Source: Prevotellaceae bacterium (GTDB lineage Bacteria > Bacteroidota > Bacteroidia > Bacteroidales > Bacteroidaceae). Taken from it: a stretch of 5,083 nt of DNA. Both the position numbers and the translations under genes were made by a program. The stretch's first letter is position 1; each line of letters starts with the position of its first letter. The notes under the pieces were generated by a model. The model saw only the letters and a list, made by a program, of their open reading frames with translations. It was not told where the DNA came from and searched no databases. Below are positions 1,629-5,062 of the stretch, one piece after another. Location of the stretch: positions 1 through 5,083 of the forward strand of contig JAJPYP010000011.1 in NCBI GenBank assembly GCA_021204885.1, read 5' to 3'.

Positions 1629-1638
1629 GATAAATGCC

Positions 1639-1646
1639 TATATTTG
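1639..1646 (+). promoter_or_regulatory. Bacteroidetes -7 promoter element for the HsdR-N gene
   Basis: TATATTTG fits the TAnnTTTG consensus exactly. A TTTC at 1617-1620, 18 bp upstream, is an imperfect -33 element. Transcription would begin near 1650-1653, leaving a leader of about 70 nt before the ATG at 1724. This is a consensus match read by eye. Confidence 0.5.
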
Positions 1647-1681
1647 CCTCTCGAAGCCCAAGGGGCTGCCGATTGATTAGA

Positions 1682-1689
1682 CAAATATA
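1682..1689 (-). promoter_or_regulatory. Bacteroidetes -7 promoter element for amn-holA
   Basis: The plus strand reads CAAATATA, so the minus strand reads TATATTTG, an exact TAnnTTTG match and the identical octamer to the opposing promoter at 1639-1646. Transcription would begin near 1675-1678, about 47-50 nt before the amn start codon. No good -33 TTTG is visible upstream; the region there is purine-rich on the plus strand (CTTTC-type on the minus strand). Confidence 0.5.
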
Positions 1690-1723
1690 CGACAAAAAAG
1701 CGGAAAGCGGAAAGAAAAGCGAC

Positions 1724-2173
1724 ATGTTATCGTTAAACTTGCCTCCATACGAGGTTAGAATAAGCCGTCAGGCCGGGAAAGAGCGGATATTCGACGAGGT
1801 ACGCCGCCGCTTTGTGGCACTCACGCCCGAGGAGTGGGTGCGCCAACACTTCGTGCACTTCCTGCTCTACGACAAGGGCTATCCCAAGGCATTGCTTGCC
1901 AATGAAGTGCGGCTCACGCTGAACGGCACGATAAAGCGATGCGACACCCTGCTCTACCGTCCCGACCTCACCCCGCGTATGGTGGTGGAGTACAAGGCCC
2001 CCGATGTGGAGATAACCCAAGACGTATTCAACCAAATCACGCGCTACAACCATGCGCTGCATGCCGACTATCTGACGGTGAGCAACGGCCTGCGCCATTA
2101 CTGCTGCCGCATCGACTACGCTACGGGCAGCTACACCTTCTTGCCCGACATACCCTCCTACAACGAGCTTTAG
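1724..2173 (+). CDS. Stand-alone HsdR N-terminal-type PD-(D/E)xK domain protein
   Basis: The product is 149 residues and resembles the N-terminal nuclease domain of type I restriction R subunits (the HSDR_N_2 family), without helicase or translocase parts. The putative active site looks intact: Glu61 in NEVRL, Asp74 in RCDTLLY, Glu89 and Lys91 in VVEYKAP (the D-x14-E-x-K pattern) and a QITRY at 104-108 matching the QxxxY motif of HsdR-like nucleases. No hsdM or hsdS lies nearby, so a restriction role is not implied; homologues are common single genes in Bacteroidetes and their function is, to my knowledge, not established. The ATG at 1724 is chosen because an in-frame upstream ATG at 1634 lies before the -7 box and would add 30 basic residues unlike the family. 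A weak purine-rich stretch (GGAAAGAAAAG) precedes the start. The gene is divergent from amn and its stop is followed by the palindrome array. Confidence 0.85.
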   Translation: MLSLNLPPYEVRISRQAGKERIFDEVRRRFVALTPEEWVRQHFVHFLLYDKGYPKALLANEVRLTLNGTIKRCDTLLYRPDLTPRMVVEYKAPDVEITQDVFNQITRYNHALHADYLTVSNGLRHYCCRIDYATGSYTFLPDIPSYNEL

Positions 2174-2218: not shown

Positions 2219-2236
2219 TACGGAAGCGCTTCCGTA
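2219..2236. repeat. Perfect 18-bp palindrome, first array unit
   Basis: TACGGAAGCGCTTCCGTA equals its own reverse complement over all 18 bp. It is separated from the dense block of AAGCGCTT units by 115 bp, exactly five 23-bp steps, from the GGGCGCTT unit at 2339. Confidence 0.9.
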
Positions 2237-2266
2237 AATCTACAAACTCGACTTCTTACACCCTGC

Positions 2267-2278
2267 AAACTCGAGTTT
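2267..2278. repeat. Palindrome AAACTCGAGTTT, array unit with a different core
   Basis: This is a perfect 12-bp palindrome. Its left half AAACTCGA also occurs exactly 23 bp upstream at 2244-2251, where the right half is decayed (CTTC). The core sequence differs from AAGCGCTT but the CG centre and spacing are kept. Confidence 0.8.
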
Positions 2279-2310
2279 ATACATCCTTGAAGAACCGATT
2301 TTGCAGGATC

Positions 2311-2328
2311 TAAGGAATACTATCCTTA
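2311..2328. repeat. Interrupted palindrome TAAGGA-N6-TCCTTA, array unit
   Basis: Arms 2311-2316 and 2323-2328 are perfect inverted repeats. The dyad centre, 2319.5, is exactly 23 bp before the centre of the GCGCTTCG unit at 2342.5 and about 23.5 bp after an imperfect dyad centred at 2296, whose outer arms are ATCCT (2283-2287) and AGGAT (2305-2309). Confidence 0.65.
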
Positions 2329-2383
2329 TAATCTGTCGGGGCGCTTCGGCAGTTTTGTTCAAGCGCTTCGGCAGGGTCTGTTC

Positions 2384-2429
2384 AAGCGCTTCGACAGGAT
2401 CTATGGAAGCGCTTCGACAGGATCTATGG
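2384..2429. repeat. Exact tandem duplication of one 23-bp unit
   Basis: Units 2384-2406 and 2407-2429 are identical over all 23 bp (AAGCGCTTCG, then ACAGGATCTATGG), and identity continues 11 bp into the next unit. This suggests a recent unit duplication, by slippage or unequal exchange, inside an otherwise diverged array. Similarly the 21 bp at 2516-2536 recur exactly at 2539-2559. Confidence 0.9.
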
Positions 2430-2447
2430 AAGCGCTTCGATAAGACC

Positions 2448-2465
2448 TATGGAAGCGCTTCCATA
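2448..2465. repeat. Perfect 18-bp palindrome, internal array unit
   Basis: TATGGAAGCGCTTCCATA is self-complementary over 18 bp. It is the only unit of the dense block whose flanks are fully symmetrical; the others pair TTC or TGG on the left with CGA on the right. Confidence 0.9.
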
Positions 2466-2611
2466 CGACCTCATCATCACATTCGATAGGGTGAGTTCAA
2501 GCGCTTCGATAAAAGGAATTCAAGCGCTTCGATTCACCGAATTCAAGCGCTTCGATTCAGTGCATGGATTGGGATGCGCGAAACCGGCGGAAACAGTCGA
2601 GGTACTATACG

Positions 2612-2668: not shown

Positions 2669-3490
2669 TTACTCCTCGACGACGCGCTTCCTGCGCGACG
2701 TGCGCTCCTTGGGCTCTTCCCGCTGTTCGGGACGAACGCCCGCCAATTCGGGGTCTATCAAGATGCGTCCGCAGTACTCGCACACGATTACCTTCTTGCG
2801 ATAACGGATCTCCAACTGGCGCTGGGGCGGTATCTTGTTGAAGCAGCCGCCGCAGGCGTCGCGCTGCACGTAGACGATGCCCAAGCCGTTGCGCGAATTC
2901 TTGCGGATGCGCTTGAACGACTGCAACAGGCGCGGCTCTATCTTGGCTTCGAGCGCTTTGGCTTGGTCGCGAAGACGCTCCTCTTCCTGCTTGGTCTCGG
3001 CAATGATCTCGTCTAATTCACCCTTCTTCACCTCCAAGTCCTTCTTGCGCTCAACCAACGCTTCCGAACTGGCCTCTACCTCCTTGGAACGGTCTTCCAC
3101 GCTTTGGGTGTACTCGCGGATGTGCTTGTTGCAAAGCTCTATGTCGAGCGTCTGGTACTCGATCTCCTTGCTCAACCAGTCGTACTCGCGGTTGTTGCGC
3201 ACGTTGTCCTGTTGTTCCTTATATTTGTCGATGGAGTCTTGCGCCGCCTTGATCTTCACGTTCTCGTTGGCTATCTCGGCCTTCAAGTCGGCCACTTCCG
3301 CCTTGATACGCTCTATGCGGGTGCCAAGTCCGGCAATCTCGTCTTCCAAATCCTGCACTTCCAAGGGGAGTTCACCACGCAAGGTCTTTATCTCGTCTAT
3401 CTTGGAGAGCATCGTCTGGAGCTGGTACAGTGCTTGCAGCTTCTGCTCTACGGTAAGTTCCGTAGCATCTTTCTTTACTTCTTTGGCCAT
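2669..3490 (-). CDS. Coiled-coil C4-type zinc ribbon protein
   Basis: The 273-residue product has a long charged, heptad-like coiled coil over about residues 15-190 (many Glu/Lys/Leu, few Pro/Gly), followed by a C-terminal zinc ribbon with CGGC at 213-216 and CEYC at 237-240, four cysteines placed to bind one zinc. A basic, disordered-looking tail rich in Arg/Glu follows (about 252-273). This layout matches the zf-RING_7 / C4-type zinc ribbon family, often described as putative nucleic-acid-binding; its biochemical role is not established. The gene commonly sits next to a Nif3-family gene, as here, 95 bp downstream of it. The start ATG at 3490 gives the usual short N-terminal lead and is preceded by an AGAGGT ribosome-binding-like motif. 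The gene ends 30 bp before a strong terminator. Confidence 0.9.
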   Translation of the reverse strand: MAKEVKKDATELTVEQKLQALYQLQTMLSKIDEIKTLRGELPLEVQDLEDEIAGLGTRIERIKAEVADLKAEIANENVKIKAAQDSIDKYKEQQDNVRNNREYDWLSKEIEYQTLDIELCNKHIREYTQSVEDRSKEVEASSEALVERKKDLEVKKGELDEIIAETKQEEERLRDQAKALEAKIEPRLLQSFKRIRKNSRNGLGIVYVQRDACGGCFNKIPPQRQLEIRYRKKVIVCEYCGRILIDPELAGVRPEQREEPKERTSRRKRVVEE

Positions 3491-4528: not shown

Positions 4529-5062
4529 ATGATGACAAGCGGTCTACATCGTGCGAACAAGGCCGATAGGAAGAGGCAAGCCCCCGTGTTCCCGGCCGAA
4601 TGGGCTCCGCAAAGCGGCGTGCAGCTCACGTGGCCTCATGCGGCTACCGATTGGGCCTACATGCTCGCGCCCGTGCAGGCTTGCTTCGCGCGGATAGCAA
4701 GGGAGATTGCCTTGCGCGAGGAGTTGCTCATCGTTACCCCCGAACCGGAAGCGGTGGAACGGCAGATAGCCGGCACCGTCTGCATGGAGAACGTGCGCTT
4801 CTTCCGTTGCCCCACCAACGACACGTGGGCACGCGACCATGGCGCCATCACCATGCTTGACGTTGATGGGCCTGCCCTGCTCGACTTCACCTTCAACGGC
4901 TGGGGGCTGAAATACGCCGCCGCGAAGGACAACCTCATCACCCGTCGTGCCGTGGCGGCGGGCGTGCTTCAAGGCAAATACGTGAACTGCTTGGACTTCG
5001 TGTTGGAGGGCGGCTCGTTGGAGAGCGCCGGTTGCGGCACCTTGCTCACTACCTCGCGTTGA
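4529..5062 (+). CDS. aguA: Agmatine deiminase, N-terminal half; reading frame broken at window edge
   Basis: This enzyme hydrolyses agmatine to N-carbamoylputrescine and ammonia, on the arginine-to-putrescine route. The 177 residues seen match the N-terminal half of the PAD_porph/agmatine deiminase family: FPAEWAPQSGVQLTWPH at 21-37, NDTWARDHG at 97-105 (substrate-guanidinium side), FNGWG at 122-126 and LEGGS at 159-163. Full enzymes are about 340-370 residues and end with the catalytic Cys; that part and the catalytic His are not in the window. The frame stops at TGA (5060-5062) where homologues usually have Cys in a C-L-L-x-P-N-R-N segment; the next codons still read L-L-S, so the true frame probably continues past the TGA. 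Start choice is uncertain: ATG 4529 or 4532 would be nearly leaderless, while GTG 4586, preceded by AGGAAGAGG at 4567-4575, starts directly at the conserved region. Confidence 0.88.
   Translation: MMTSGLHRANKADRKRQAPVFPAEWAPQSGVQLTWPHAATDWAYMLAPVQACFARIAREIALREELLIVTPEPEAVERQIAGTVCMENVRFFRCPTNDTWARDHGAITMLDVDGPALLDFTFNGWGLKYAAAKDNLITRRAVAAGVLQGKYVNCLDFVLEGGSLESAGCGTLLTTSR

Follow-up and report, generated by a model that had tools for sequence, protein, structure and literature searches.

A 23-bp phased dyad array in a Prevotellaceae genome belongs to a dispersed family within a class of 21-23 bp arrays in Bacteroidaceae

Structure of the locus and its array

The window, meaning here the whole 5,083-nucleotide stretch of Prevotellaceae DNA that was analysed, encodes six proteins with Pfam families (DNA_pol3_delta, PNP_UDP_1, HSDR_N_2, Zn_ribbon_9, DUF34_NIF3 and PAD_porph). 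A first-pass annotation had placed an array of palindromes in a convergent intergenic region, and the gap at 2174-2668 is indeed bounded by two converging genes, those for the HSDR_N_2 and Zn_ribbon_9 proteins. The closest matches of the zinc-ribbon gene in named genomes are mostly from Bacteroides, at up to 78%. The PAD_porph reading frame (4529-5062) stops 21 bases before the end of the window and aligns with no more than positions 2-147 of the 321-position profile. The features of the gap and its borders are listed below; G490 is the nearest related genome among those compared.

1634..2173, plus strand: HSDR_N_2 gene (Pfam); reading frame as listed, the protein start may be further in
2219..2567, unstranded: whole phased dyad array, 15 units at 23-bp pitch with a single 22-bp step
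2220..2235, unstranded: unit 1, perfect 16-bp palindrome ACGGAAGCGCTTCCGT, 7 of 7 dyad pairs
2244..2255, unstranded: imperfect second-word unit AAACTCGACTTC; the word family also occurs in G490
2267..2278, unstranded: second-word unit AAACTCGAGTTT, a perfect 12-bp palindrome at the next phase step; same 12-mer in contig C12 of G490
2312..2327, unstranded: in-phase but degenerate unit AAGGAATACTATCCTT; by eye, perhaps the word GAATGTATTC seen in G490
2361..2460, unstranded: five AAGCGCTT units in a row (2361, 2384, 2407, 2430, 2453) at exact 23-bp pitch
2476..2487, unstranded: decayed in-phase unit ATCACATTCGAT, 1 of 7 pairs, right half-site retained (by eye)
2499..2552, unstranded: three AAGCGCTT units in a row (2499, 2522, 2545), exact word matches
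2669..3490, minus strand: gene for a C4-type zinc-ribbon protein (Zn_ribbon_9, Pfam), convergent with the HSDR_N_2 gene

The annotation had counted about 15 units in 23-bp phase with one 22-bp step, and this count holds: the first of 15 in-phase positions is 2224 and the last 2545, and the 14 steps between them comprise 13 of 23 bp and one of 22 bp, the latter between 2339 and 2361. The nine exact copies of AAGCGCTT that it reported were found again (2224, 2361, 2384, 2407, 2430, 2453, 2499, 2522 and 2545), and the whole 5,083-nt window has no exact copy outside the array. With up to one mismatch there are 13 matches, a number reached in none of 200 shuffles. At lag 23 the convergent gap scores 99, the highest score among 300 shuffles being 13, and TRF, a type of check that the annotation had suggested, reports four 23-bp rows, two of them overlapping.

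The description of the units as palindromes stands for the array taken together, where 4.5 of 7 dyad pairs form at in-phase centres compared with 1.7 at 305 out-of-phase positions (p 0.005, column permutation), but less well for six of the 15 units, which lack AAGCGCTT and have weaker dyads at the exact phase centre (1-4 of 7 pairs). Two of these six carry a second, AAACTCGAGTTT-like word, which is centred about one base out of frame, at 22 bp from unit 1.

Between the array and the zinc-ribbon gene, at 2618-2638, lies a terminator-like hairpin, GGGGCTGAAAGCCCC followed by a T run. This hairpin accounts for nine of the best 10 matches in a plasmid search (11 records) and for all of the best 10 in a phage search (46 records); the tenth plasmid match, from Gluconobacter, covers 23 array bases at E 0.5. 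The pattern AAGCGCTTCG at 23 bp was not found in viral contigs, and no Rfam family matches anywhere in the window at the gathering score.

The word of the window in related genomes

Comparison of the HSDR gene with 158 genomes, 138 of which gave a match, identified G490 as the nearest at 84% amino acid identity, the runner-up being at 72%; the flanking DNA of G490 and the window is 82% identical. In the orthologous gap, G490 carries two copies of AAGCGCTT at 23-bp pitch at a contig end and, further left, a AAACTCGAGTTT pair with the same spacing. Across the 1.7-Mb genome, the unit pair AAGCGCTT-N15-AAGCGCTT (up to two mismatches) has 104 matches, and the reversed-pattern control none. A search of relatives for the unit had likewise been proposed in the annotation. 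The pair pattern is matched 28 times in G488 and 16 times in G296, where the matches listed are largely variants like AAGCACTT, and 0-7 times in each of 15 other genomes compared (controls 0-2).

A search of 399 family genomes, not including G490, gave 1-2 hits to the word in each of 35 genomes, with reversed-control hits in about 16 genomes (counted by hand), and no array of the word among the hits. That search suggested that the word was private to its genome, a view overturned by G490, which was found through the neighbouring gene. In word and pitch, the window array matches a lineage-specific family whose members are spread across many contigs of G490, and it is one copy of this dispersed family.

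On contigs C1-C36 of G490, seven of 16 arrays are no more than 250 bp from a contig end, a zone of about 8% of the length, as expected because repeats break assemblies. Similar 23-bp arrays occur within about 350 bases of the start of contig C18 and the ends of C20, C23 and C24 of G488, perhaps beside a long repeat such as the rRNA operons.

A class of 21-23 bp arrays in Bacteroidaceae

Non-coding sequence was scanned, after removal of low-complexity sequence, with a detector that scores lag matches +1 and mismatches -1, and arrays were called at scores of at least 20. In the pooled Bacteroidaceae samples, 51 of 71 arrays had a pitch of 21-23 bp and 8 more a pitch of 42-46 bp. The 80 loci from a search with the zinc-ribbon gene, some of which originate outside Bacteroidaceae, gave 35 arrays (23 at 21-23 bp, 3 at 42-46), and 20 stretches of 20 kb, chosen from as many Bacteroidaceae genomes, gave 13 (9 and 1, respectively). 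Forty contigs of G490, 36 taken in order and 4 picked for carrying the word, held 18 arrays (14 and 4). The first 400 kb of G263 held five arrays, every one at 22 bp and with at least three unrelated words between them.

No array was called in 200 kb of E. coli K-12 or in 50 kb of S. meliloti pSymB. Among control stretches whose non-Bacteroidaceae status was inferred from zinc-ribbon identity, 20 from across the phylum had a single array, at 24 bp and so none at 21-23 bp, and 20 from other Bacteroidales had four, one at 21 bp and none at 22 or 23. In Markov shuffles of 895 kb, 17 hits had a score of at least 13, and only one of these reached 16. Among the zinc-ribbon loci, two further non-coding tandem arrays, at L006 8576-8716 and L053 2966-3083, have periods of 14 and 11 bp and are not of the 22-bp class, and a 21-bp array of ATTTTCCGAAGGTAGATGGTC type (L334 15931-16084) lies in a Bacteroidales genome that is probably outside Bacteroidaceae.

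The array class is thus frequent in the sampled Bacteroidaceae, its 21-23 bp pitch being retained as the dyad word varies from one genome to another and, inside a genome, from one family to another. The annotation had treated the array as a local one; the array itself is real, but the picture of a single array is incomplete, as it is one member of a dispersed family in a class found across Bacteroidaceae. Its label as unrecognised agrees with the lack of an Rfam match, and the accessible portions of the literature, mostly outside subscription journals (including PMC3733652, PMC4060949, PMC3940949 and PMC5771137), yielded no account of dyad arrays at 22/23 bp from Bacteroides or its relatives.

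Words and their dyad symmetry

Column permutation was applied to 46 arrays with periods near 22 or 44 bp; 19 were dyadic at p < 0.05, where 2.3 would be expected (combined p ~7e-18), and the other 27 were not significantly so. Unit words differ by genome, for example GTACC-N7-GGTAC, ACACTTG-N4-GCTC and GAAGCGCTTC. The pattern GTACC-N7-GGTAC-N5-GTACC is matched 59+55 times in G263, 39+51 in G373, 9+4 in G497 and 14+12 in G498, and 0-6 times in the remainder of 99 genomes. The six matches in G040 share the same GTACC-like 27-mer letter for letter and probably belong to a separate repeat or to an insertion element. AATCAT-N5-ATGATT-N5-AATCAT is present in six of 18 genomes. Four viral contigs contain an exact GTACC match, with 2-3 palindromic units each (by eye) and no longer array. 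The GTACC arrays at L228, L245, L270 and L272 open with a longer inverted repeat of the type GTGTACCAAAG-N10-CTTTGGTACAC, ahead of the regular units (by eye).

Units of three words (GAAGCGCTTC, GAATGTATTC and AACTCGAGTT) share one phase in G490 and in the window. Between neighbours of different words 12-60 bp apart, 11 of 34 spacings are 22 or 23 bp and 6 of 34 are 44-46 bp, in a count that allows two mismatches, so that chance hits dilute the signal. One G490 array, for instance, has four GCGC-type, one TGTA-type and three CTCGAG-type units at 23-bp spacing throughout. Tandem duplication alone is therefore insufficient to explain such arrays.

Constraint, co-variation and turnover

The GTACC family of G263 and G373 forms 22 clusters in 23 loci scanned (L229 lacks a cluster of three), and their steps are uniformly 22 bp apart from two exceptions, of 44 and 69 bp. 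In a logo of 128 units, the inner four positions of each half-site hold about 1.5-2 bits and the linker 0-0.3; the units were selected by half-site, so that only the emptiness of linker and loop is unbiased. Substitutions in five orthologous array pairs affect 24/260 half-site positions (9%), 67/181 loop positions (37%) and 54/105 linker positions (51%), with 22% in the flanks, a comparison that overstates half-site conservation since the loci were chosen because both genomes carry the word. A less biased but single locus, located in G373 and G497 through its flanking sequence, gave 20/150 (13%), 40/105 (38%) and 20/65 (31%), respectively, in two comparisons. In this family the rate of change at half-sites is below that of loops and linkers by a factor of 2.3-5.6. 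Conserved dyad half-sites with free loops and linkers, the signature of a dimer operator array, were found, in the GTACC family only.

Arrays change length mostly by whole units: gaps of an entire 22 bp were found inside the arrays of three of the five ortholog pairs and in one of the two comparisons at the flank-found locus. A single-base gap between L231 and L238 falls in the loop of an edge unit. Orthologous gaps can also bear different words in different species. At one convergent gap followed by flank search in 14 genomes, inspection by eye shows a GTACC array in G263, G373, G497 and G239, and different arrays, also of 22 bp, in G528 and G156; G226 has one degenerate dyad, G286, G333, G081 and G063 have no array, and the flanks are unjoined in G504, G296 and G304. 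Similarly, within 700 bp downstream of a kinase gene, a distance that may extend beyond the gap, 8 of 16 orthologues (the first 16 relatives of 30 loci) have a 21-23 bp array, six of them scoring at least 20, and only one has the GTACC word.

Across 25 dyadic arrays, co-variation between dyad partners has a mean z of +1.1, with seven above 2, none below -2 and the window at 2.4; dyad symmetry therefore tends to persist as words change. This fits homodimers of changing specificity, and also hairpins or template switching.

Placement relative to genes

Thirty-seven arrays were classified by the orientation of the adjoining genes as ++ (14), +- (10), -+ (7) and -- (6), where intergenic length alone predicts about 15, 7, 9 and 6, so placement is roughly neutral. 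A terminator or promoter role is unsupported by this distribution. Among the 38 neighbour genes of GTACC arrays, no Pfam family occurs more than three times (best 25 of 86 families), and a common regulator gene beside the arrays was rejected on the same count.

Interpretation

The comparisons above could best be explained, we judge with modest confidence, by cooperative arrays of dyad sites for one or more putative dimeric DNA-binding proteins, aligned on one face of the DNA. Each unit would be the predicted site of a dimer, and the pitch of about two helical turns would bring successive dimers onto the same face, where they may touch and bind cooperatively as a short filament. The assembly might act on the chromosome through local architecture, topology or insulation, or might serve its own spread. 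Arrays are intergenic whatever the orientation of the adjoining genes, their numbers roughly follow the length of DNA on offer, and the genes beside them are unrelated; they therefore do not appear to be operators or terminators for the adjoining genes. Units would be gained and lost mostly in whole-pitch steps, by which the phase is kept. The first-pass annotation had left open a decaying minisatellite or a selected binding array; the latter is better supported by the word and pitch in G490, the mixed words in one phase and the conserved half-sites, which a plain minisatellite leaves unexplained.

The most serious alternative, although an unlikely one, is a selfish dispersed repeat, in which composite arrays are copied by transposition or gene-conversion machinery, in the manner of REP/BIME elements, with no function for the host. 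Its clearest case is G156, where ACACTTG-N4-GCTC-N7-ACACTTG has 115+80 matches of a fairly homogeneous word at many dispersed places and none in 17 other Bacteroidaceae genomes, and where homology appears to stop at the array borders (by eye, 21 arrays), so that the family looks recently copied. The similar word order at some G490 loci and the seven of 16 arrays near contig ends point the same way. However, older arrays keep their half-sites, the pitch is constant across unrelated words and across genomes, and no terminal motif or outer inverted repeat was found in common among the loci. Spread by copying is, given the look of the G156 arrays, likely even if binding is the function. The co-variation and the G156 copying weighed together leave protein-binding arrays slightly favoured and a purely selfish repeat at distinctly lower probability.

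Hairpins of RNA or single-stranded DNA are a disfavoured explanation, to which we assign a low probability. Here transcripts of the array, or lagging-strand DNA, would fold into a row of hairpins that may affect, for instance, RNA stability, processing or termination. Folding of the window array does exceed that of 100 shuffles by a wide margin on either strand (z -8.5 and -7.6), as is expected of any palindrome array. Furthermore, some arrays co-vary, the innermost loop pair of the GTACC family among them (z 3.2), compensated changes occur in L126 and L127 (by eye), and convergent gaps are somewhat rich in arrays (10 against about 7 expected). Against this, the variable outer pair of the GTACC family is without co-variation (observed 0.45, expected 0.52), and in the G490 word the pairs differ, one being anti-complementary (z -3.5) and others positive, two of them at z 4.0. 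In addition, several words are loopless or have just 4-5 weak stem pairs, and divergent gaps hold arrays too (7 against about 9).

Ordinary transcription-factor operators, each word being the regulon motif of one local regulator, would suit the GTACC logo, which resembles a dimer operator, and AAGCGCTT, which we take to resemble LacI-type operators. This explanation is nevertheless slightly less probable still, as convergent gaps hold arrays at least as often as expected (10/37 against about 7), adjoining genes are unrelated and the same gaps bear unrelated words in other species. Least probable of all is a neutral minisatellite with quasipalindrome-templated mutation, slippage building the units and template switching making the palindromes with no selection: linker identity (0.37 between neighbouring units, 0.27 between random ones), whole-unit indels and co-variation in some arrays are consistent with it, but slippage cannot account for a period set so sharply at 21-23 bp and found mainly in one family, and mixed words in phase, the genome-wide dispersal of one word and slow half-sites are left unexplained.

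Returning to phased arrays of protein-binding sites, a broader and more tentative proposal, which we put forward at somewhat less than even confidence, is that the phased dyad arrays of Bacteroidaceae form a chromosome-wide system that has not been described before. A putative protein family would bind at two-turn pitch at tens of intergenic places, with specificity and sites turning over together between species as places and pitch are kept. If true, part of the intergenic DNA of major gut bacteria would be organised by a rule, the two-turn dyad pitch, and not by a sequence, and motif or repeat searches would therefore miss such arrays. This would open a testable question on chromosome architecture in Bacteroidota and on the joint change of a DNA-binding specificity and its many sites. 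A practical warning is that arrays at contig ends may break assemblies.

Comparison with known systems

CRISPR repeats are 24-48 bp long (PMC3733652), alternate with unique spacers and go with cas genes. In the window, unit and linker together measure 23 bp and no cas family occurs among the six proteins, in line with the annotation, which had set CRISPR aside.

Bacterial minisatellites or VNTRs are also tandem repeats that gain and lose whole units, whereas the arrays described here form a dispersed family with mixed words per phase, slow half-sites and fast loops and linkers. A minisatellite decaying from tandem duplication was rejected, as the even divergence across positions that it implies was not seen between GTACC half-site, loop and linker and as words are mixed; some local duplication remains.

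The iterons of plasmid origins are tandem sites of about two helical turns that lie next to the gene of a replication initiator. The arrays are likewise tandem at this spacing but are dispersed at many chromosomal gaps, and no replication-initiator family was found among the six window proteins. The chromosome-organising proteins SlmA, Noc and MatP bind single dispersed dyad sites with a conserved word. Such sites resemble the arrays in being many short dyads over the chromosome, independent of adjoining genes, and differ from them in that the arrays are phased and have a species-specific word.

REP/BIME elements are repetitive extragenic palindromes that form GTAG and CGTC super-families with the tag at one end (PMC3733652). 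A scan of the GTACC and G156 words only found GTAG, CGTC or a complement within 8 bp of 8 of 43 array ends (22 GTACC, 21 G156), where chance would give an estimated 12. Insertion sequences and MITEs carry terminal inverted repeats and target-site duplications; in the arrays, complementarity of the outer arms was not raised over shuffled pairs in G156 (z 0.7) or in G263/G373, and outer inverted repeats around arrays, striking in L305, are not general. A RAYT tyrosine transposase in the genome is a further mark of REP/BIME elements. The likeness to REP/BIME elements lies in short intergenic palindromes dispersed in many copies, as found here, in species-specific families. The arrays differ from them in their constant 22/23-bp tandem pitch, in the several words that share one phase and in the turnover of words at orthologous gaps.
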